A DNA stretch of 64,000 nt from Winogradskyella aurantiaca (GTDB lineage Bacteria > Bacteroidota > Bacteroidia > Flavobacteriales > Flavobacteriaceae). Location of the stretch: the NCBI RefSeq assembly GCF_003362725.1, contig NZ_QKTV01000001.1, positions 124,001-188,000 on the forward strand, given 5' to 3'. The position numbers were made by a program, and so were the translations under genes. The notes below the pieces were generated by a model. It saw only the letters and a program-made list of their open reading frames with translations. It did no database searches and was not told the origin of the DNA. This document shows, one piece after another, positions 39,495 to 49,918 of the stretch. Each line of letters begins with the position of its first letter. Within the stretch, counting starts at the first letter, position 1.

Positions 39495-40406
39495 ATGCTA
39501 GAGGTAAAAGGAATTTCATTCACTTACGGTAGTACACCCATCCTGGAGAACATTACATTTTCCGTTGATAAAGGAGCCAATCTTGCAATTATTGGTGAAA
39601 GTGGCTCAGGGAAAAGTACCTTACTCAATCTCATCTATGGACAGTTCGACCTAAAACACGGTGAAATTTGGTGGAAAGACCAGCAAATACTTGGCCCAGC
39701 TTTCAACCTGGTCGTGGGTTATAATTTTATGAAGCAGGTCACTCAAGAATTTGACCTTATGCCTTTTACTACGGTAGCTGAAAATATTGGTGAATTCCTG
39801 TCTAATTTTTATCCTGAAGAAAAGGCCTCCCGTATTGCTGAATTGATCAAAGTGGTGGAGCTAGAGCCATTTGCTAATGTCAAAGTAAAGAATCTTAGTG
39901 GTGGACAGAAACAACGTGTTGCCCTTGCCAGAGCCTTGGCTAAAGAACCTGAAATTTTATTATTGGACGAGCCCTTCAGTCATATCGATAATTTTAAAAA
40001 GCAGTCCCTACGTCGTAATATTTTTGGTTATTTAAAAGAGTGCAGAATCACCTGCCTAGTTGCTACGCATGACAAAGATGACGTACTAAGTTTTGCCGAC
40101 GAGATATTGGTTCTTCATGAGCACGAAATTATCAGAAGAGGCGCACCTGAAATACTTTATCACAATCCAAAGCTCCCCCTAATTGCCTCCTTTTTTGGAG
40201 AATTCAATCAAATTAATGATAAGATATATTACGCGGATCAAATTCAAATCATTGAGCAATCAGATCATATAGCAACCGTGGAACAGTCTTATTTTAATGG
40301 GAATTCTTGGTTGGTAAAGGCCTTATTTGATGGGCAAACACTATTTATAAGGTCAGAAAAAGCAATTGAAAAGAACTCTTCAATTCAAATTCAATTTTCT
40401 TCTTAG
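39495..40406 (+). CDS. ABC transporter ATP-binding protein (orphan)
   Basis: ATPase of 303 residues with Walker A GESGSGKST (34-42), signature LSGGQ (134-138), Walker B LLLDEP (155-160) and the H-loop ATHDKDD. The ATPase domain ends near 225; the remaining ~75 residues are a beta-rich domain (INDKIYYADQIQII...) similar in position to the TOBE-like regulatory domain of PotA/FbpC importers. No permease or binding protein gene is adjacent, so the partner must be elsewhere. The stop overlaps that of the opposing MMPL gene. The substrate cannot be predicted. Confidence 0.9.
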   Translation: MLEVKGISFTYGSTPILENITFSVDKGANLAIIGESGSGKSTLLNLIYGQFDLKHGEIWWKDQQILGPAFNLVVGYNFMKQVTQEFDLMPFTTVAENIGEFLSNFYPEEKASRIAELIKVVELEPFANVKVKNLSGGQKQRVALARALAKEPEILLLDEPFSHIDNFKKQSLRRNIFGYLKECRITCLVATHDKDDVLSFADEILVLHEHEIIRRGAPEILYHNPKLPLIASFFGEFNQINDKIYYADQIQIIEQSDHIATVEQSYFNGNSWLVKALFDGQTLFIRSEKAIEKNSSIQIQFSS

Positions 40407-42652
40407 CGATCTAACCGCTTCAATAAGGCTGGTAAGTAAAAAATATCTGTTAATAAGGCAATTGCCACCGTCACCGCACAAAGCAACCCAAAATCCCGAA
40501 CTGAAGGTACTGCACTGGATGCGATAATTAGAAAGCCTACAACTAAGGCTATGGTTGTAGAGAATAGAGCGCTTCCCGTATATCGCATGGCATTATCCAT
40601 ACGTTCTTCTGGTGTTCCCTTAATCGTTTTACTTTTTCGGTACTTATAGACCAGATGTATGGTATCGTCCATGGCGATTCCCAACATGATGGGTGTGATC
40701 ATAGCTGTGGACACGTCCAACGGGATATCTAAAAGGCTCATGAAAATTGCTAAAATGGCCAAGGGCAAAACATTAGGAATTAACACCAGAATTGTAGTTC
40801 TAATATTTCTTATAAAAACAAAAAGACATAAGAAGCCCACAAAAAATGCTGCAAAAAAGGACTTGAATTGAGTTTCTAAAATAAAGTTGTTCAACTGAGA
40901 AAACACCACCGAAAAACCATTAATCTTTAGGTCGTAACTATCAGGATCAAACTGTTCTTTAAACCTGATTTTAATATCATCTAATAAGGTTTCTAACTCA
41001 GAGGTCCGGATCTCTTTAACACCTAAAACCAGGCCAGTGGTCTTAAAATCATCTGATACTAAAGTAAAAAACTGGTTGTCAGTCATTCCTATGCGCTGCA
41101 ATGCAAATTTGATTTTCTCTTCATTGATATTTGATTGAAACAATATCGGAGAACGAGCCTCTAAAAATTGTTTAAGATTGACTATCGAGACCGGATGTGC
41201 TGCAAAAATATTGCCTTCAAGGTTTGTTTGAAAGGACTCTAGTTTCTTAATGTTCTCCCGTTCTAACATACTCCCTTTATTGGTAGTGATATTCAATTGT
41301 AGTCTGGAACTACTATTCAACTCTTGCTCAACTATACGCAATTCATCTTTAGCCTGCCCTTCGGCCAAAAGATCAAGGGAGTTAGTATCTATGTCAACTT
41401 TAAAAACAGAGAAAATACCAAATACCAGGATAATACTAGAAACTACTATTATAGATATTTGACGCTTAGTCGTTAGTTGGTTGAGCCATTGAATAACAGC
41501 ACTTTGATTAAAAACTTTCCATTGTAAAACAGGTGTGGCCGATTTAAAATCTATGTTCATAAATGAAAAGCCAATGATTGTAACTAGATAGACTAAAATG
41601 AAACTTAGCAATAAGCCAACACAGGTAAATACACCCATTTCCTTAAATGCGGGAAGCGGCGAAAGATACAGCGCAAAATACCCTACAAAAGTGGTAAGAG
41701 TCGTATAAAAGCACGGTGTAAAACTCCGTCTTACGGTAAGCGTAAGTAAGTCGATTTTGGAACTATCTCCCATCAACAATCCTTCCTTATGATAGATATT
41801 GATAATATGTACCGCATCGCTCACACTGTAAACCATAAGAATGGTTGGTATGAGCATCGAAATCATATTTAAGGCAAAACCGAAAGACGTGATGATTCCA
41901 AAGAGGAGAGAAATGGGGACGACAACCGATAACAGCGATACTATTAAATAACGCTTACTCGGCAGCAAAAACAATAGCATAAGGCTAATAAAACCGATTG
42001 TGAGAATCCCAAAAATGAGACTTTCCTTATAAATTCCAACGCTATAGGCTTCGTTAAGAACTGGGGCTCCAGTAAGGTAATAGTCATTATAGTGCTCATC
42101 AATCACCTCACGTATATCCTTGGCAATTTGATCGCGCTGTGCTTCTATGCTCGGTGTGGGGTTTAATTGGATATAAAAAAACAGGTTCTTAAAATCTTCA
42201 GTGACCAACTGCTGTGAGATATTAGGCAATTTGGACATCAGGTTTTTCATGCCCCGTTCACTACGTCGAGGATTGTAAAGCGGTTGAAAAGAAATATCTC
42301 CCTTGGCATAAATAGGATACTCCGCTTTGGCCAAACTAAAGGAGGTTTTTACAAACCAAAGGGAGTCTATATGCTGATGAAATCTCGATAGACGCAGGAT
42401 ATTAAGGGAGTCCATGGCATTTTCTACTGGTATCATTCCAACAAAAATCTCATCGGAGCCGTACTGTTCCTGATAATCAATATAGGCTCTGTAACTAGGA
42501 TTATCTTCTAAAAACCATATTGCAAGAGAATTGTCAACACGTAACTTTTGAAACGTCTGGTATCCCGACAACCCCATTAATAGAGCTAAAAGGACCATTA
42601 TGCCAATACGGAATCGAATGATCTGGATGATTATGTGTCTCAACACTTTCAC
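40403..42652 (-). CDS. MMPL/RND-superfamily exporter, last gene of the T3PKS operon
   Basis: Inner-membrane transporter of 749 residues with the two-fold architecture of MMPL/HpnN proteins: a membrane segment at about 15-35, a large periplasmic loop, five segments at about 215-370, one near 400, a second loop and five more at about 600-745. IMLGIAMDDTIHLVYKYRKSK in the second half matches the Asp-containing TM4 motif used for proton coupling; the first half has TILMVYSVSDAVHIINIYH. MMPL proteins move lipids and polyketide-like lipids. Its start overlaps the PPTase stop by 1 bp, so it is likely the exporter for the product of this operon. Confidence 0.88.
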   Translation of the reverse strand: MKVLRHIIIQIIRFRIGIMVLLALLMGLSGYQTFQKLRVDNSLAIWFLEDNPSYRAYIDYQEQYGSDEIFVGMIPVENAMDSLNILRLSRFHQHIDSLWFVKTSFSLAKAEYPIYAKGDISFQPLYNPRRSERGMKNLMSKLPNISQQLVTEDFKNLFFYIQLNPTPSIEAQRDQIAKDIREVIDEHYNDYYLTGAPVLNEAYSVGIYKESLIFGILTIGFISLMLLFLLPSKRYLIVSLLSVVVPISLLFGIITSFGFALNMISMLIPTILMVYSVSDAVHIINIYHKEGLLMGDSSKIDLLTLTVRRSFTPCFYTTLTTFVGYFALYLSPLPAFKEMGVFTCVGLLLSFILVYLVTIIGFSFMNIDFKSATPVLQWKVFNQSAVIQWLNQLTTKRQISIIVVSSIILVFGIFSVFKVDIDTNSLDLLAEGQAKDELRIVEQELNSSSRLQLNITTNKGSMLERENIKKLESFQTNLEGNIFAAHPVSIVNLKQFLEARSPILFQSNINEEKIKFALQRIGMTDNQFFTLVSDDFKTTGLVLGVKEIRTSELETLLDDIKIRFKEQFDPDSYDLKINGFSVVFSQLNNFILETQFKSFFAAFFVGFLCLFVFIRNIRTTILVLIPNVLPLAILAIFMSLLDIPLDVSTAMITPIMLGIAMDDTIHLVYKYRKSKTIKGTPEERMDNAMRYTGSALFSTTIALVVGFLIIASSAVPSVRDFGLLCAVTVAIALLTDIFYLPALLKRLDR

Positions 42653-43215
42653 TAATAGGTAATGGAATAAGCAGCATAGCCCCCGTGATGGGTTAATGAT
42701 ATGGCCGCCTTAAGTTTGGAACCTTGATGGTAGATATGAGGAACCCCTGAACGATCTTTTCGTAAAGTCAAACACTCGTTTTCAATATTTAATTGTTCAG
42801 ACATTCTAGAAAAAAGGGTCTGTCGAATTTGTTTACTCTGAGACTCATGGTCGGGTGACACTTTTAAGATTTCTCTATGCACTGGCTTTTGAGCAATCGT
42901 TTCTGCGTAAATCATGCTGTTGTCTTTAACACATTGAACTTCTACACTAAAGTCTTGATAGCTCACCTCAGTTCTGGAAGATAAAGCAGAACAAACGAAG
43001 GCCTTGGGATTAAAAAATCGGGAAGGATATAGTTGCAAATAAGCCTTATAAGCCGCCTCTTTTATTGCCCAAAGTTGCCATATCGCAGAAAATTTGTTAG
43101 AAGATTGTCCTATTAATTCTTGTTCCTGAATGGTGAACAATTTATCTAAAAACCTTGGGTGCTGCCATTTAGAAATCCTGGCATAGCCTAGGTCAACAAT
43201 GTCATTTCCAATCAT
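42652..43215 (-). CDS. 4'-Phosphopantetheinyl transferase (AcpS-like fold)
   Basis: Protein of 187 residues that would load the phosphopantetheine arm on the ACP encoded directly upstream. The two defining motifs are present: IGNDIVDL (2-9, with metal Asp5) and WAIKEAAYK (49-57, with Glu53 and Lys57). The chain is longer than AcpS (~125) and shorter than Sfp (~225), with an additional C-terminal half ending in LTHHGGYAAYS. Start and stop overlap neighbours by 1 bp each. A PPTase dedicated to one cluster, next to a non-canonical ACP, suggests that the housekeeping AcpS does not serve this carrier well (inference). Confidence 0.85.
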   Translation of the reverse strand: MIGNDIVDLGYARISKWQHPRFLDKLFTIQEQELIGQSSNKFSAIWQLWAIKEAAYKAYLQLYPSRFFNPKAFVCSALSSRTEVSYQDFSVEVQCVKDNSMIYAETIAQKPVHREILKVSPDHESQSKQIRQTLFSRMSEQLNIENECLTLRKDRSGVPHIYHQGSKLKAAISLTHHGGYAAYSITY

Positions 43216-43466
43216 TAAGCTTCCAGCTTAGACTTGACAATACTCATGGCAGATTTTACATCCATCATCTGCTCCATATCCTCATTTTCTAATCTAATGT
43301 CGAAGGCATCTTCGATATCAAGAATAATATCTACCAAATTAGCCGAATTAATCTTGAGATCTTTTACAAAATCCGTGTCTTCTGATAGGTTTTTAAATGC
43401 CGCTTCATCTTGAATATAAGGTTCAATGATAGGTTTTAACTTGGCAATAAGCTCGTCTTTGTTCAT
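43215..43466 (-). CDS. Acyl carrier protein with non-canonical NSAN motif
   Basis: Small acidic helical protein of 83 residues. The attachment serine is Ser41 in KINSANLVDIILDIEDAF, where primary-metabolism ACPs have a D-S-L-D/E motif. The helix that follows (VDIILDIEDAFDIRLENED) is typical of ACP helix II and would dock the partner enzymes. It lies between the ketosynthase (22 bp) and the PPTase (1-bp overlap). It most likely carries the acyl chain that becomes the starter of the type III PKS. Confidence 0.88.
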   Translation of the reverse strand: MNKDELIAKLKPIIEPYIQDEAAFKNLSEDTDFVKDLKINSANLVDIILDIEDAFDIRLENEDMEQMMDVKSAMSIVKSKLEA

Positions 43467-43488
43467 AGCGTTATTTTACAAAGTAAAG

Positions 43489-44763
43489 TTACGCTTTATA
43501 ACGCTTAAATAAAACACAGGCATTGACATCTCCAAATCCAAAACTTGCTTTAGCAAGTATATTCAATGGTTTTTGAGTGTAACTTTGTGGAATGCATTTC
43601 AAAGGTACAAGCTTTGCAATTTCAGGATGGATATCTTCACAATTTAAATTAGGAGCTAAGAATTGATCTTTTAATTGCAGAATACTTGCCACAGATTCAA
43701 TAGCTCCAGCTGCGGCAAGGCAATGACCAATCATGGATTTAGTCGCATTAATATGCGGAAAGTCATCACCTGAACGGTCTAACGCTTGAACCCAGTTTTG
43801 CACCTCCACTGAATCTTTAGAAGTTGCTGTAAGGTGACCGTTGATCACATCAATTTCCGAAGCCTGCACTTCGCTGAACTCTAAGGCCTTTTTAATACAC
43901 TTTTGAACCGACTCTGAATTGGGTGCCGTTAAGGTACCTCCTTGGCGTTGACCACCAGAATTAACTGCCCCTCCTAATACTTCAGCGTAAATCGTAGCGC
44001 CACGCTCTAAGGCTGATTCGAGCGATTCCAACACTAGAGCACCTGCTCCACTACCTGGTACGAAACCTGAAGCCGAAGCACTCAAAGGTCTTGAACCTTT
44101 TTTGGGATTTGCATTATGCTTATAGGTCATAACCCGCATGGCATCAAAACCTCCCCAAACATAAGGGCCATGATCACTACAACTACCCACTAACATGCGT
44201 TTGGCTTTGCCTGAACAAATTCGGTCAAAACCCATGATTATAGCTTCAGTTCCTGTGCTACATGCTGACGAATTTGTAGTCACTTGATTGCCCAATCCCA
44301 GGATGCCACTCAAATAAGCGCTCACACCGCTCGTCATGGTTTGCAAGACAACCGTACTCCCTAAGCGTCTGACCTGGCCATCATCAAGTTTGTAAATAGC
44401 TTCTCGAAATTTCTCCACTCCAGAGGTCCCTGTCCCAAAAATGAGACCTGTTTCATCATCCAGCTTACTATCGGCATTGTTGTCAAAGCCTGCGTCCTTC
44501 CAGGCGTCAATTCCTGCGATACAACCGTAAAGAATCCCAGAACTATTAAATCCCCGCAGTTGTAAGTCTGTAAAGTAGTGTCGTTTGAACTCTTCAGAAA
44601 TACTAGGAATACCACCTATCTGGCAAGAAAATTTTAAATCCTCTAATTCAGGGAAATGTTGGATACCAGACACTCCTTCTTTCAATGATTGTAAAAAGGA
44701 CTCAAGGCCCACTCCATTTGGAGCCACCACACCCATTCCTGTAATAACAACGCGTTGGTTCAT
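43489..44763 (-). CDS. Beta-ketoacyl-ACP synthase (FabF/KAS-II-like)
   Basis: Condensing enzyme of the thiolase fold, 424 residues. The Cys-His-His triad of elongating KAS enzymes is present: Cys168 (NSSACSTG), His310 (INGHLTATSKDS) and His347 (KSMIGHCLAAAGAIE). The first His motif departs from the usual N-A-H-G-T-S-T by Gly and Leu substitutions. It overlaps the dehydratase gene by 4 bp. By its position with its own ACP, dehydratase and enoyl reductase it probably extends a dedicated acyl chain instead of serving bulk fatty-acid synthesis. A chain-length-factor role is unlikely because the Cys is intact. Confidence 0.9.
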   Translation of the reverse strand: MNQRVVITGMGVVAPNGVGLESFLQSLKEGVSGIQHFPELEDLKFSCQIGGIPSISEEFKRHYFTDLQLRGFNSSGILYGCIAGIDAWKDAGFDNNADSKLDDETGLIFGTGTSGVEKFREAIYKLDDGQVRRLGSTVVLQTMTSGVSAYLSGILGLGNQVTTNSSACSTGTEAIIMGFDRICSGKAKRMLVGSCSDHGPYVWGGFDAMRVMTYKHNANPKKGSRPLSASASGFVPGSGAGALVLESLESALERGATIYAEVLGGAVNSGGQRQGGTLTAPNSESVQKCIKKALEFSEVQASEIDVINGHLTATSKDSVEVQNWVQALDRSGDDFPHINATKSMIGHCLAAAGAIESVASILQLKDQFLAPNLNCEDIHPEIAKLVPLKCIPQSYTQKPLNILAKASFGFGDVNACVLFKRYKA

Positions 44764-45197
44764 GAGCTTAACATTCCTGAAATAATCCCTCGAGCCACTA
44801 ATTTCTCTTTGCTATTATACATATAAACTTTGCACTTCAATTTATTAAAGCGAAACACCTCTTTCTCTGAGCGTACTTTAACTGTCTCACCAGGAAATAC
44901 GGGAATATAAAAATCAACTTGATGAGAGGTTAGTGCAATTTGAGGATTTGTCAGACTATCTATGGATTGACCCATCAGATAAATGCCCAAACAAACCACT
45001 CCAATTTGAGCCATGCACTCCGTCAAAATAACCCCTGGGGTGACAGGATGGTCTTTAAAATGTCCTTGATAAAAATACGCATCATGTTTAAAGGTGTAAG
45101 CGCCTTCACAACCTTGTTCAGAAACAGATTCTAGGTGATCAACAAAAAGAAAAGGTTCCTTATAGGGCAATAATGATATGATCTGTCTACTATCCAT
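44760..45197 (-). CDS. 3-Hydroxyacyl-ACP dehydratase (FabZ-like hotdog)
   Basis: Single hotdog domain of 145 residues. LLPYKEPFLFVD (9-20) and QGHFKDHPVTPGVILTECMAQ (44-64) match the FabZ core, with catalytic His46 and Glu60. The family dehydrates 3-hydroxyacyl-ACP to trans-2-enoyl-ACP. It starts directly behind the reductase gene (no gap) and overlaps the ketosynthase by 4 bp. The second hotdog of FabA-type dimers is provided by homodimerisation. Confidence 0.88.
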   Translation of the reverse strand: MDSRQIISLLPYKEPFLFVDHLESVSEQGCEGAYTFKHDAYFYQGHFKDHPVTPGVILTECMAQIGVVCLGIYLMGQSIDSLTNPQIALTSHQVDFYIPVFPGETVKVRSEKEVFRFNKLKCKVYMYNSKEKLVARGIISGMLSS

Positions 45198-45995
45198 TTA
45201 TCTTAAGTGTTCTCCCCCATCTACGGGTATCACAGTTCCTGTAATCCAGGATGCCTCATCTTTACACAATAGATATACTGCATTAGCCACGTCCTCTGGT
45301 GTGGTAAGGCGCTTATTAGGATTACGTTTTAGGCTATGAGCCACAATCTTATCGCTTCCGGGAATCATGCGTAAGGAAGAAGTATCGGTCACCCCTGCTT
45401 GAATGCAGTTAGCTTTAATACCAAAAGGCGCCAACTCCAATGCAATATTTCTGGTAATGGCTTCAAGTGTCACCTTAGCGGCAGATACAGCCGCATAATT
45501 TTCCCAGGCTTTGGAATTTCCTTCACTCGTAAAACTGATGATACGTGCGTCTGAATCAAACAACTCTTCATCTAAAATAGCTTTGGTCCAATTGTATAAA
45601 CTAATACCCATCGCTTTAATAGTGAGCTCAAAATCATCAGACCTTAAGACCTGATTGTCCTTTGAGGTCATTGGTTTTAAATTACCCTTTGCTACGCTAT
45701 GAATCAGGGTTTTTATAGTCCCAGAATTACCTAATGTATCTTTGATATCCTGAATTATAACCTCCCGCTTTTCTGGCTTAAACGCATCCTGATTAAAACA
45801 CAACAACTCCACTCCCAGATCCTTGATCTCTTGAAAGGATTTCTCAATAGCCTCCATTTGACTTCTGGCATTTCTATGCACGATAATAATGCTCATGCCA
45901 TGATTTGCTAATTTTTTAGCTGTGGCTAGTCCCAATCCAGAACTTCCACCTAGTATTAGGGCCCATTGGTTCTTATTTTTGAATTCTTTTACCAT
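45198..45995 (-). CDS. SDR enzyme, FabL-like enoyl-ACP reductase candidate
   Basis: Short-chain dehydrogenase of 265 residues with cofactor motif ILGGSSGLGLA (14-24). The active site reads ENYAAVSAAKVTLEA: Tyr and Lys are separated by six residues (Y-x6-K), the spacing of enoyl-ACP reductases, whereas ketoreductases and most SDRs have Y-x3-K. The whole region resembles Bacillus FabL. The C-terminus DGGEHLR is as in FabI/FabL. It overlaps the type III PKS gene by 7 bp. It would saturate the chain made by the ketosynthase and dehydratase; no FabG-type ketoreductase gene is present in the operon, so that step must borrow a housekeeping enzyme. Confidence 0.8.
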   Translation of the reverse strand: MVKEFKNKNQWALILGGSSGLGLATAKKLANHGMSIIIVHRNARSQMEAIEKSFQEIKDLGVELLCFNQDAFKPEKREVIIQDIKDTLGNSGTIKTLIHSVAKGNLKPMTSKDNQVLRSDDFELTIKAMGISLYNWTKAILDEELFDSDARIISFTSEGNSKAWENYAAVSAAKVTLEAITRNIALELAPFGIKANCIQAGVTDTSSLRMIPGSDKIVAHSLKRNPNKRLTTPEDVANAVYLLCKDEASWITGTVIPVDGGEHLR

Positions 45996-47041
45996 CTCAA
46001 TAAGATTCGTTGTGCTGAAAAGCCTGGTCCAAAACTTAGCATTAAGCCATATTCACCTTTATTAATTCCTCTTTCTATAAATCGTTCTAAGACATATAGA
46101 ACTGTGGCACTACTCATATTTCCATACAGCCTTAAAACTTCTTTAGTATCATCAATATTTTTTCCCAAGTCACCAAACAGATCTTCAACCGTTTGAACAA
46201 TTTTCTTACCTCCAGGATGAAACACTAAATGTTGAATATCTGAAATACTAAGATCATTTTGCTCTAAAAATGGATGGATGATTGCTGGAAAATGATCTGC
46301 TATAGTTTGTGGTACTGTTTGATCCAAAACCATTTGTAATCCTGTATTTCGCAGTTTAAAGCCCATCATATGCTCCGCTTGGTAAAAGTGATACATGGAC
46401 TCATCGAGAATTTCAGGGCCTGTTTCATCCTCATAAGATGAGAGAATAACACTGGCGCAACCATCACCAAAAATTGCGGCGCTTACAATATTCACCATAG
46501 AATAATCGTCCAATTGAAATGTGGCCGTAGGAGATTCCATGGCTATAACCACAGCTCTCTTATTTGGATTAGCCTTAAGAAAGTTCTTTGCATATAAAAT
46601 CCCAGACACGCCAGCGGCACAACCCATTTCTGTCACTGGTAATCGCACAATATCCTCGCGCATGTTTAAACGATTAATTAAATATGCATCCAAAGAAGGA
46701 ATCATGATACCTGTACAACTTACGGTAATGATATAATCAATATCCTTAGCCTCTAAGTTAGCATTATCCAAAGCTTTTATAAGGGCCGCTTCAGCCAGTT
46801 TTATTCCTTCTCTTGTATAAATATCATTCTTTTCTTCAAAGGATGTTTTCAAAAACACTTCCTCTGCATCCATGATGGAGTAACGTCGATCCACGGCTGC
46901 ATTCTCGAATATCTTGAGCACCTTTCGCTTAAAGCGATCTTCCTGACCTTCTAACCATAATTCCACGAAGGGCAAAATGTCTTTGGTTTCACGCGTATAA
47001 GGAGGTAATTGTTTGGCGATTGCACTTATTTTTACGGGCAT
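45989..47041 (-). CDS. Type III polyketide synthase (chalcone/stilbene synthase family)
   Basis: Homodimeric CoA/ACP-dependent condensing enzyme of 350 residues. The catalytic triad is complete: Cys141 (TEMGCAAGVSG), His275 (LVFHPGGKKIV) and Asn308 (YGNMSSATVLYVLE). IFGDGCAS near 190 and the C-terminal LSFGPGFSAQRILL, the GFGPG-type loop, distinguish it from FabH. Bacterial homologues make alkylresorcinols, alkylpyrones or tetrahydroxynaphthalene. With an ACP-linked fatty-acid set, a methyltransferase and a flavoprotein in the same operon, a phenolic lipid or alkylpyrone is the best guess (inference). Product chemistry and starter cannot be read from the sequence. It starts 6 bp after the methyltransferase gene. 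Confidence 0.93.
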   Translation of the reverse strand: MPVKISAIAKQLPPYTRETKDILPFVELWLEGQEDRFKRKVLKIFENAAVDRRYSIMDAEEVFLKTSFEEKNDIYTREGIKLAEAALIKALDNANLEAKDIDYIITVSCTGIMIPSLDAYLINRLNMREDIVRLPVTEMGCAAGVSGILYAKNFLKANPNKRAVVIAMESPTATFQLDDYSMVNIVSAAIFGDGCASVILSSYEDETGPEILDESMYHFYQAEHMMGFKLRNTGLQMVLDQTVPQTIADHFPAIIHPFLEQNDLSISDIQHLVFHPGGKKIVQTVEDLFGDLGKNIDDTKEVLRLYGNMSSATVLYVLERFIERGINKGEYGLMLSFGPGFSAQRILLRW

Positions 47042-47047
47042 ATGGCG

Positions 47048-47767
47048 TTATTGCTTTTCTGTTTTAATAATCCATTGGTATCTAAATGCCCATTTCCATT
47101 TTATAACAAAAGGTTGGGCTAACTGTTTAGACATGTGTTCTAATTCTTCTTTTTTAAAGGCTCTTAATATTGAGGTTAAACCGTCCTGTTTTACCATATG
47201 GTTAGAAATGGTAATACCTAATAAACGAAATAACCCATAGGCTATTTCAGATCTTTGAAGGTCATTAACAACAATACCCAGATTGGACTGCTCTTTAAGT
47301 TGTTTGAGTAGTTTTAAGATTTCGATTTCTGAAAAATGGTGAAGAAAGAGGGTGCAGAGGGCGATATCACAAGTCTCTTCTTTAAACTGTTCTGAAAAAA
47401 TATCTTGGCTAGAATATTCAATCTCAGGATATGATTTAGATAGTTCTCTTGCATAGGCAATGGCATCCTTATTAGCGTCAACACCCAATAACCGAAACTT
47501 AAATTGCTGCTTCCTTCCATAATTGGCTACCTGTCTCAGCATATCGCCATGACCACATCCTAAATCTATAATCGTATAACTCTGTCCTTTCGTTCGATTC
47601 TTTAACAAACGGTCTATGCCATTAAGCGTAATCCTGTTTCCGCCAAGCCATTTATTGATACGACCTAGTTGATCCAATGTGTCGCGAAGTAGATCGCCCT
47701 GAATGGAAAAATCATCCATCAGTTCCTCCTCGTTACTTCTATATGTAGTATCTATAAACAAGCTCAT
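47048..47767 (-). CDS. Class I SAM-dependent methyltransferase
   Basis: Protein of 239 residues with SAM-binding motif I IIDLGCGHG (66-74), an acidic motif II (LLGVDAN) and motif IV region CDIALCTLFLHHFSE. It is soluble, unlike the membrane methyltransferase SrsB that acts on alkylresorcinols in Streptomyces, but the position between a type III PKS and a flavoprotein is the same as in the srsABC set. It may methylate a phenolic or pyrone oxygen or a carbon of the product. It overlaps the flavoprotein gene by 4 bp and ends 6 bp before the PKS start. Confidence 0.85.
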   Translation of the reverse strand: MSLFIDTTYRSNEEELMDDFSIQGDLLRDTLDQLGRINKWLGGNRITLNGIDRLLKNRTKGQSYTIIDLGCGHGDMLRQVANYGRKQQFKFRLLGVDANKDAIAYARELSKSYPEIEYSSQDIFSEQFKEETCDIALCTLFLHHFSEIEILKLLKQLKEQSNLGIVVNDLQRSEIAYGLFRLLGITISNHMVKQDGLTSILRAFKKEELEHMSKQLAQPFVIKWKWAFRYQWIIKTEKQ

Positions 47768-48900
47768 GCCTCTTTCATCGGTTTGCCGTGGGTCATTTTT
47801 ATAATTTGAGGAATCAAAAATGGGAAAACCCTCAAAACATTAAGAAGAAAGGCTGCTATTGAATCCTTTCGAAATAGATACGCAATTGTGTGCCCAACCT
47901 TAAGCCTAAAACTAAAGTTAGACTGCCATTTTCGTTTATAAACCGTTTCCAAGGCGCTTCTATCTGGTATTTCACCTTGAAGATAGGCAATAATGCAAAG
48001 TGATACTAATTGTGCAGACCTTATTGCCATTCCCATACCATTACCACATAGTGGATGAATCATTCCTGCTGAATCTCCACACATTAATATGTGGTTTTCA
48101 ACGGCCTCCTTTGTTTCAAAAGAGATTTGACTAATGCTTAATGGTTTCTCAAACTCAGGAGTGGTTTTTTGGTAGATCTCTTTCAAACGATCATTCTCAA
48201 AAAGTACTTTCTCTTGAAATTCCTCTAAGTCTTTATACTGTTTAAAAGACTCATAACTGGTAATATAACAAAGGTTAATATGATCATTCTCTACCTTGGA
48301 AACTCCACAATAGCCACCTTTAAAATTATGAAGCGCCACCTTGCTTTCTGGAAAATTACCAGAGACATGCATCTTTACACCCAAATAAGGTGATTTTCGC
48401 TTTATAAAGTTGCGGTCCATCTTAACATCCAAGTTGGATCGTTTTCCAAAGGAACCAATGACTAAATCTGCAGTAAGAATTCCTGAACCCTTTGTTGTTA
48501 AGATAAACTCATTATTCTCAAAGGAGGTTGAGGTTACGGTATCTTTTATCATGTTTACTCCCTTTGATTTGGCCAAAAGAAAAAGCTGATAATCCATTTG
48601 ATAACGACTCATCCCAAATCCACCAAGCGGCAGTTTGGCTCTAATTCTTCTATTAGATCGTGTTGTTAATTCAAACTCACTAATTTTTTTAGCGCCAAAT
48701 TCAAAGGGGTCAAACCCAAGTGATTTCAAATAAGGCAATACCTCGTTTGAAATGTATTCCCCACAGACTTTGTGTTTAGGATAATTGCCTTTTTCAATTA
48801 GTGTTACTAAACTCGCATGTTCTGATAGGTGAATGCTAGCGCATAAACCAGCTAAGCCCCCTCCAATAATAACAATATTTGAATTGGGTTTGTTTGTCAA
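47764..48900 (-). CDS. FAD-dependent oxidoreductase (geranylgeranyl-reductase/monooxygenase type)
   Basis: Flavoprotein of 378 residues in the PHBH/geranylgeranyl-reductase superfamily. The dinucleotide motif GGGLAG is at 13-18; KVCGEYIS (44-51) and CGDSAGMIHPLCGNGMGMA (second FAD motif) match the reductase-like branch. The C-terminal ~40 residues are hydrophobic with a run FLLNVLRVFPFLIP that may bind the membrane. In the type III PKS context it could hydroxylate the aromatic ring (as SrsC does) or reduce a double bond of a lipid chain; the sequence does not decide. It overlaps both neighbours by 4 bp. Confidence 0.85.
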   Translation of the reverse strand: MTNKPNSNIVIIGGGLAGLCASIHLSEHASLVTLIEKGNYPKHKVCGEYISNEVLPYLKSLGFDPFEFGAKKISEFELTTRSNRRIRAKLPLGGFGMSRYQMDYQLFLLAKSKGVNMIKDTVTSTSFENNEFILTTKGSGILTADLVIGSFGKRSNLDVKMDRNFIKRKSPYLGVKMHVSGNFPESKVALHNFKGGYCGVSKVENDHINLCYITSYESFKQYKDLEEFQEKVLFENDRLKEIYQKTTPEFEKPLSISQISFETKEAVENHILMCGDSAGMIHPLCGNGMGMAIRSAQLVSLCIIAYLQGEIPDRSALETVYKRKWQSNFSFRLKVGHTIAYLFRKDSIAAFLLNVLRVFPFLIPQIIKMTHGKPMKEA

Positions 48901-49400
48901 GGATTTAAAAAATGTACGACTTTTACGGTTACTGTTTTCCCTAGGAAACCACCACCTCCAACATCAAAATCACGACGGTTGATCTCAAACTCTGACTGGA
49001 ATGTTTCACGACCTCCTTCGGTTATTCTCCTTCCTCTAATGGTTATAGACCTGGTAGTGCCCTTGATACTTAAATCGGCATTTATTTGGTAAGCATTATT
49101 TCCTAAAGGCTTAACAGAAGTACTTTCTAATAGGATTTGAGGGTATTTTAATGCATCAAAATAATCCTCTTCCAATAAGTGTTTATCTCTTTTGGTGATT
49201 CCAGTTTCTATGGTGGCCACCAATACTTCGCCCTTAATGTCGGTTATATTACCCAAGCTATCCTGACCCAAACTGACCTTTGATTTTGAGAAAGCACCAT
49301 CAACATCAATTCCAAAGTTTTTAATGACAAAACTTATCTGTGTATTCTGAGACCACATTGAATGTGTTAGAAATACAAGAATAATTAGCATTAACCGCAT
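48897..49400 (-). CDS. Secreted YceI-like lipid-binding protein, first gene of the T3PKS operon
   Basis: Protein of 167 residues with a signal peptide (MRLMLIILVFLTHSMWSQ, cleavage near residue 18) and a YceI-like lipocalin fold: ISFVIKNFGIDVDGAF at the start, the FDALKYPQILLEST motif near 85 and the C-terminal VTVKVVHFL. YceI proteins bind long polyisoprenoid-like or other amphiphilic molecules in the periplasm. Its gene leads the operon and overlaps the flavoprotein gene by 4 bp. The most economical role is to receive or shuttle the lipid product in the periplasm (inference). A 68-bp gap separates it from the preceding GreA-like gene; no clear promoter box was found in it. Confidence 0.85.
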   Translation of the reverse strand: MRLMLIILVFLTHSMWSQNTQISFVIKNFGIDVDGAFSKSKVSLGQDSLGNITDIKGEVLVATIETGITKRDKHLLEEDYFDALKYPQILLESTSVKPLGNNAYQINADLSIKGTTRSITIRGRRITEGGRETFQSEFEINRRDFDVGGGGFLGKTVTVKVVHFLNP

Positions 49401-49468
49401 GTATCAAAATGTTTGAAATCAATGAAGTTACGGCAGAATTAGCAGTTAATAAAAAAGGAAGATGAGTT

Positions 49469-49918
49469 TTACAGAATTTTTATAATTTCCTGAGTTTCAT
49501 CTCTGAAAATTACAGTTTCTCCAACTCGCTTAGAAAATAATAACTGGCCGATAGGTGTATTTAAAGATATGGCATAATAGGAAATTCCGTCTGCAGAAAT
49601 TTTACCGGCACTTATAGAGATAAAATAATTAGCTTTATTAGTTGTCACTATACTTCCAAGGGCCACAGTATGATTGGTTTTATCAATTCTTATTCTCTTT
49701 AGAATGTTACGTTGTTCCTCAACTATCCTTAACTGGTTTCCCAGTTTCTCACGTTCTAATTGAATCATAGCACGGCCCGTTTCATGTTTATCACCTGCAC
49801 TACTCTTGGTTTCAGAGTTCAAACTGTTTTCAATATCAAGAATAGAATTTTGGAGAAGCCGAAGGCGCATACCAACCAAATCGCCACATTGTTCCAAAAG
49901 TTGTTTTTTTATGCTCAT
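49469..49918 (-). CDS. GreA/GreB-like protein with coiled-coil N-terminus
   Basis: Protein of 149 residues: an N-terminal helical hairpin (about 1-75, with LEREKLGNQLRIVEEQRNIL) and a C-terminal beta domain (ALGSIVTTNKANYFISIS..., SPIGQ-like NTPIGQLLFSKRVGE) that matches the C-terminal domain of transcript cleavage factor GreA. The hairpin carries the acidic/polar tip SAGDKHETGRAM. It therefore may bind RNA polymerase's secondary channel, as Gre, Rnk or DksA-like factors do. The chain resembles flavobacterial entries often labelled 3-oxoacyl-ACP synthase; nothing here supports that name. It overlaps the oxidoreductase gene by 4 bp. Confidence 0.72.
   Translation of the reverse strand: MSIKKQLLEQCGDLVGMRLRLLQNSILDIENSLNSETKSSAGDKHETGRAMIQLEREKLGNQLRIVEEQRNILKRIRIDKTNHTVALGSIVTTNKANYFISISAGKISADGISYYAISLNTPIGQLLFSKRVGETVIFRDETQEIIKIL

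Follow-up and report, generated by a model that had tools for sequence, protein, structure and literature searches.

We have identified an operon of ten co-directional genes on the minus strand at positions 49400-40403 of the window, which is the whole stretch of 64,000 nucleotides from Winogradskyella aurantiaca that was analysed. The operon encodes a type III polyketide synthase (PKS) together with tailoring enzymes and discrete genes for acyl-chain synthesis, and its core remains clustered in many flavobacteria from marine and fresh water. We favour, with moderate confidence, the reading that the operon is a self-contained phenolic-lipid pathway that would lead to a methylated alkyl-hydroquinone or quinone. 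The gene content, gene order, conservation, co-occurrence, intact catalytic residues, and predicted folds on which this reading is built were observed and are described below.

The genes were located from the open reading frame (ORF) listing of the window. The junctions between them comprise overlaps of 4, 4, 7, 4, 1, and 1 bp and gaps of 6, 0, and 22 bp. The family name of all ten genes is backed by Pfam and NCBIfam profile searches. The near-abutting arrangement, the order, and the families named in an earlier reading of this DNA, made from the letters alone (the sequence-only reading), are confirmed by the ORFs and both profile sets. The ten genes are as follows.

48897..49400, minus strand: YceI-family protein of 167 aa with a signal-peptide-like N-terminal segment (PF04264, 5.6e-25); accessory.
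47764..48900, minus strand: flavin adenine dinucleotide (FAD)-dependent oxidoreductase of 378 aa, predicted aromatic hydroxylase (FAD_binding_3, GG-red-SF/QhpG-like); core.
47048..47767, minus strand: class I S-adenosylmethionine (SAM)-dependent methyltransferase of 239 aa (Methyltransf_25, 1.4e-13; PRK06202-like, 144.7 bits); core.
45989..47041, minus strand: type III PKS of 350 aa (PF00195 and PF02797, above cut-offs); core.
45198..45995, minus strand: short-chain dehydrogenase/reductase (SDR), FabL-like enoyl-acyl carrier protein (ACP) reductase (PRK08063 FabL, 159.7 bits, below cut-off); common, dispensable.
44760..45197, minus strand: FabZ-like 3-hydroxyacyl-ACP dehydratase (PF07977, 3.1e-13; FabZ model, 65.6 bits); core.
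43489..44763, minus strand: FabF-like ketosynthase of 424 aa, active-site Cys present (fabF model, 274.5 bits, below the equivalog cut-off); core.
43215..43466, minus strand: ACP with NSAN replacing DSLD (PF00550, 9.9e-5); core.
42652..43215, minus strand: Sfp/AcpS-superfamily phosphopantetheinyl transferase (PPTase; PF01648, 2.5e-12); core.
40403..42652, minus strand: MMPL/HAE3-like resistance-nodulation-division (RND) membrane protein of 749 aa (PF03176, 6.1e-25; HAE3 TIGR00921, 173.6 bits across the full length, below cut-off); accessory.

The seven core genes are thus those of the FAD protein, the methyltransferase, the type III PKS, the FabZ-like dehydratase, the FabF-like ketosynthase, the ACP, and the PPTase. 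A search of flavobacterial genomes for the ordered set, which the sequence-only reading had proposed as a check, found that the seven core genes keep an identical order and strand at every locus where all of them are visible (73 of 73). An ortholog-level PKS is present in 13 of 60 related genomes, and the searches with the FAD protein, the ketosynthase, and the ACP return the identical 13. Because order and strand are constant and these four core genes occur in the identical genomes, the operon is regarded as one unit and not as a chance arrangement, as had been supposed from the letters. For the other core proteins, pairwise identities also track those of the PKS, with Mantel r of 0.90 for the ketosynthase, 0.89 for the dehydratase, 0.88 for the FAD protein, 0.81 for the methyltransferase, 0.79 for the ACP, and 0.56 for the PPTase (0 of 999 permutations reached any of these values). 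These correlations are swelled by species relatedness and are therefore read as no more than consistent with joint inheritance.

The nearest relatives of the PKS are 83-87% identical and come mostly from Winogradskyella and close genera. A pattern scan with one genome per species returned at least 559 stretches encoding a PKS relative, a figure that takes in more distant homologues and is not an operon count, and the best 80 loci were read. Of 395 Bacteroidota genomes drawn evenly, 60 matched the PKS at E <= 1e-50. These matches fall in two well-separated classes, where 33 score above 500 bits (this clade) and 27 score at about 170-220 bits. The clade of this PKS is found mostly in Flavobacteriaceae; two further families of the class contribute three genomes. 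In the tree, two sequences of one family other than Flavobacteriaceae sit among those of Flavobacteriaceae with modest support, and horizontal transfer likely lies behind their placement. Even within a single family, the occurrence of the operon across genera is patchy. For other phyla, the plasmid search returned type III PKSs at no more than 35% identity, where the two annotated neighbourhoods are of the isoprenylcysteine-type methyltransferase (ICMT) type and the best match, from Streptomyces, is unannotated; the chromosomes of other phyla were covered by the best 80 loci alone. One of the 13 genomes that carry the operon (G009:C43:7259-8356) has a FAD gene with a single in-frame TAA and the rest of the operon conserved, which represents either decay or a sequencing error.

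The chemical steps, the source of the chain, the ring type, and the localisation in the pathway are proposed from these genes. The dedicated PPTase would activate the divergent ACP. The FabF-like, FabZ-like, and, where present, FabL-like enzymes, helped by the FabG of the cell, would build an acyl chain on the operon ACP. The type III PKS would take the chain from the ACP, add malonyl units (three for a resorcinol), and close a resorcinol-type ring. The methyltransferase would methylate the ring or its hydroxyls, and hydroxylation of the ring by the FAD enzyme would give the methylated alkyl-hydroquinone or quinone. Where present, the MMPL protein may flip or export the lipid and the YceI protein may hold it in the periplasm.

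The PKS has a single-domain thiolase fold with a Cys-His-Asn triad, which identifies it as a type III (CHS-like) enzyme. The triad C141-H275-N308 is unchanged in all 31 aligned sequences, and the alignment with THNS matches a second cysteine, C109, in the VSCTG segment. The structure model of the PKS has a predicted local distance difference test (pLDDT) value of 91.5 and Pks11 and CylI as its top folds in the PDB. The structures of CylI include one with a beta-ketoacyl substrate analogue and one with the resorcinol product. All 29 aligned clade members have Phe at residue 228, where the two sequences of the other class have Trp. F228 aligns with the Trp of the MGW motif of Pks11, which would correspond to W281 of ArsB through the alignment described in PMC9927152. 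An aromatic residue at this position of ArsB favours aldol (resorcinol) closure in ArsB and ArsC (PMC6274091). Phe252 of ORAS acts likewise toward aldol closure (PMC8086630), and it presumably occupies the same position as F228. From F228 and the modelled fold, we lean towards a resorcinol over a pyrone, a preference that is unproven.

The ACP of the operon carries NSAN in place of the canonical DSLD, a motif that was also read in relatives, and the housekeeping ACP carries GADSLD. The acidic residues of the DSLD motif are known AcpS contacts. A dedicated PPTase therefore makes sense where DSLD has been lost; a second PPTase of the same superfamily is encoded elsewhere in the genome. The FabF, FabZ, FabL, and ACP models score below the NCBIfam cut-offs, so the four proteins are divergent relatives and not housekeeping enzymes. 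A better-scoring ketosynthase (204 vs 117 bits), distinct from the FabF-like protein of the operon, adjoins the canonical ACP elsewhere in the genome. The GHFKDHP motif is visible in the FabZ-like protein. In 21 of 21 SDR sequences, Lys follows Tyr by seven residues, which is the Y-x6-K catalytic spacing of enoyl reductases, and the top PDB sequence match of the SDR is 3oic, an enoyl-ACP reductase [NADPH]. The equivalog cut-off of the FabL model is 328 bits, and the SDR is named FabL-like and not FabL. The families and the conserved order support a dedicated, discrete type II acyl set beside the type III PKS, as the sequence-only reading had described it. The genome also encodes a third, divergent ketosynthase (G000:C10:437125-437805) that possibly belongs to another lipid or pigment cluster.

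The model of the FAD protein (pLDDT 86.7) has 3-hydroxybenzoate 6-hydroxylase as its top PDB fold, and its fold list also holds UbiH, UbiI, halogenases, and a geranylgeranyl-reductase-like protein. A flavin-dependent halogenase was considered and rejected, where the WxWxIP motif is impossible with the one Trp that was read by eye in the protein.

Several observations weigh against a phenolic lipid. The fold matches of the FAD protein are at the family level (mostly template modelling (TM) scores of 0.6-0.8 and 12-20% identity), with halogenases and the geranylgeranyl-reductase-like protein included. The position of F228 is occupied by Leu in CylI and by Tyr in THNS, so F228 is not decisive. 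No ketoreductase is encoded in the operon. Several relatives also lack the enoyl-type reductase, and their chain may therefore be unsaturated or reduced by housekeeping enzymes.

The same assembly line could also end in alkyl-alpha-pyrones, where the PKS would perform lactone closure and methylation and oxidation would follow. The nearest solved structure, Pks11, is described as a methyl-branched alkylpyrone synthase and related type III enzymes often yield both kinds of products (PMC6274091), but the predicted cyclisation switch of this PKS is the bulky aromatic F228 and not Gly. The flavin oxidoreductase adjacent to the PKS is also typical of resorcinol-to-quinone pathways, and the pairs of a PKS with an isoprenylcysteine-type methyltransferase belong to a different clade with a different partner. 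Pyrones are considered possible but unlikely products.

Three of the ten genes are accessory: those of the FabL-like reductase, of YceI, and, most clearly, of MMPL. The MMPL gene follows the PPTase gene in 28 of the 69 loci with room, mostly in Winogradskyella. In 41 of 71 relatives, a YceI gene immediately precedes the FAD gene. The SDR is missing in about 9 of 73 loci, where the distance between the PKS and dehydratase genes is too short or another ORF is found there, and also in loci L143-L147 of other genera. Many loci thus do without MMPL or YceI, and a route in which MMPL exports the product and YceI receives it cannot apply to the pathway in general. The sequence-only reading had proposed that step for the pathway as a whole; it is weakened by these counts and is plausible only where the two genes exist. 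Insertions and additions were also seen at some loci. A 186-aa protein that resembles a REP-associated (Y1) transposase (by eye) lies between the SDR or PKS gene and the dehydratase gene at L156 7030-7590 and L111 4250-4810. A second methyltransferase (37-38% identical to that of the operon) and a membrane protein of 143-145 aa join the operon at L067 13863-15574 and, after the PPTase, at L099.

The phenolic lipid may, in a more specific form, be a polyketide quinone that carries redox equivalents or acts as an antioxidant in the membrane or periplasm, a role proposed for PkQ of mycobacteria and Streptomyces, and YceI would then be the protein that carries it. The nearest solved relatives of the YceI protein are TT1927b and other YceI proteins, some of which are named polyisoprenoid-binding, and the PkQ operon consists of a type III PKS, a methyltransferase, and an oxidoreductase (PMC9927152). 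However, about 40% of the loci are without YceI, and the patchy distribution within one family is as for a non-essential trait. This form is considered doubtful. It is likewise a speculative prospect that the operon represents a new class of membrane quinol/quinone with a type II acyl-ACP module and a periplasmic YceI shuttle, and that this lipid would carry redox equivalents or act as an antioxidant in the flavobacterial envelope.

The PKS, ketosynthase, and ACP co-occur strictly, share their order, and diverge in parallel, and the PKS gene sits between the tailoring genes and the genes for fatty-acid synthesis (FAS) in 73 of 73 loci. It is therefore very unlikely that the FAS-like genes and the PKS gene are mere neighbours in two pathways, one for a lipid and the other for a separate small aromatic, even though the best-scoring NCBIfam model for the PKS is that of DpgA, an enzyme that uses only malonyl-CoA; that match is far below the cut-off (185 vs 425 bits). 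A flexirubin or dialkylresorcinol pigment pathway, which flavobacteria commonly have and which shares the types of ACP, ketosynthase, dehydratase, PPTase, and MMPL, is rejected as extremely improbable because the ring would be made here by a type III PKS and the DarB search of the same genome gave a best score of 32 bits against a cut-off of 550.

The surroundings upstream of the operon are a point absent from the sequence-only reading. A same-strand run at 53993-49469 leads into the PKS operon and consists of fabH, accB, accC, a DAO-like oxidoreductase, and a 149-aa GreA-like protein, the last two named by eye, and all gaps in the run are 70 bp or less. Three of these neighbours, which lie outside the operon core and were named by eye from their translations, are as follows.

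53993-52998, minus strand: fabH.
52971-52486, minus strand: accB.
52415-51066, minus strand: accC.

Their identities are presumed from family knowledge applied to the translations. The fabH-accB-accC genes would provide malonyl-CoA supply and FAS initiation beside a consumer of malonyl-CoA, at least in this lineage. The accC gene is found upstream of the operon in 42 of the 70 relatives with room, and the other loci show different neighbours. Among the terminator-like hairpins, the one richest in G-C pairs that also has a full T tail is at 54145-54122, before fabH. No promoter stands out directly before YceI, where promoter-like matches are at chance level, and no TAnnTTTG was seen by eye within 49400-49470.

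Type III PKS clusters are among the commonest predicted in Flavobacteriaceae, with 9% of the biosynthetic gene clusters in one survey (PMC7440613). The flavobacterial clusters in other surveys have no match to a known compound and are reported as orphan (PMC9860996, PMC9323603). No characterised product for this gene set was found in the literature searched, with most subscription papers outside that search, and the statement of the sequence-only reading that none is known held within it. This work provides a defined core gene set, a separation of core from accessory genes, and testable chemistry. If the proposed pathway is true, the operon would be a clean, discrete model of a type III PKS that is loaded by a free-standing type II ACP, and it might explain an envelope lipid in abundant bacteria.

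The operons of a type III PKS, a methyltransferase, and an oxidoreductase yield alkylresorcinols or polyketide quinones in Planctomycetota, Cyanobium, and actinobacteria (PMC10896814, PMC9927152). The type III PKS operon of Saltatorellus is reported to carry a gene for a lipid/isoprenoid-binding protein, and its PKS made alkylresorcinols (PMC10896814). SrsABC (Streptomyces griseus) and PkqABC (Mycobacterium smegmatis, Streptomyces MNU77) are similar to the present operon in that the PKS adjoins a methyltransferase and an oxidoreductase/hydroxylase, which act there on the alkylresorcinol (PMC9927152). However, they are three-gene operons without a dedicated ACP, ketosynthase, dehydratase, enoyl reductase, or PPTase. 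The PkqA-type enzymes have Trp at the ArsB-281 position (PMC9927152), whereas all members of this clade have Phe228 at the position presumed equivalent through Pks11. HidABC (hierridin, Cyanobium) and the planctomycetal operons share the three kinds of enzymes and have alkylresorcinol products (PMC10896814), but they are without a dedicated acyl-ACP module and their order differs from the order of FAD protein, methyltransferase, and PKS here (HidC was compared by description).

The pairs similar to BpsAB, which consist of a type III PKS and an ICMT-type methyltransferase, are also found in Bacteroidota and other phyla. Their PKS is about 34% identical to the present one, and they comprise two genes with Trp at the switch, whereas the present operon has a soluble class I methyltransferase and Phe. 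In two members of the second Bacteroidota class (L160 and L161), which represent a different system, the PKS has Trp at the switch and its gene is followed by an isoprenylcysteine-type methyltransferase gene, identified by eye. Membership of the operon among these pairs was rejected on the partner gene and the clade.

CylI of the (7.7)paracyclophane pathway, where other synthases elongate an ACP-loaded chain and the type III PKS closes the resorcinol (PMC8086630), is a fold match of the present PKS. That pathway has type I PKSs, the halogenase CylC, and the dimerising CylK, and none of these is among the ten genes here. The operon-encoded fatty-acid machinery of ArsABCD (Azotobacter vinelandii) hands ACP-bound chains directly to type III PKSs (PMC6274091), and a similar transfer may take place here, where the ACP and PKS genes co-occur. 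ArsABCD has multidomain (type I) synthases and two type III PKSs, whereas the present operon has discrete type II genes, one PKS, and tailoring enzymes. This combination is absent from the Srs, Pkq, Hid, planctomycetal, and Ars systems as described. The analogy with SrsABC and Ars that had been drawn from the letters is supported, where the type III PKS, the methyltransferase, and the flavin oxidoreductase are encoded in one operon.

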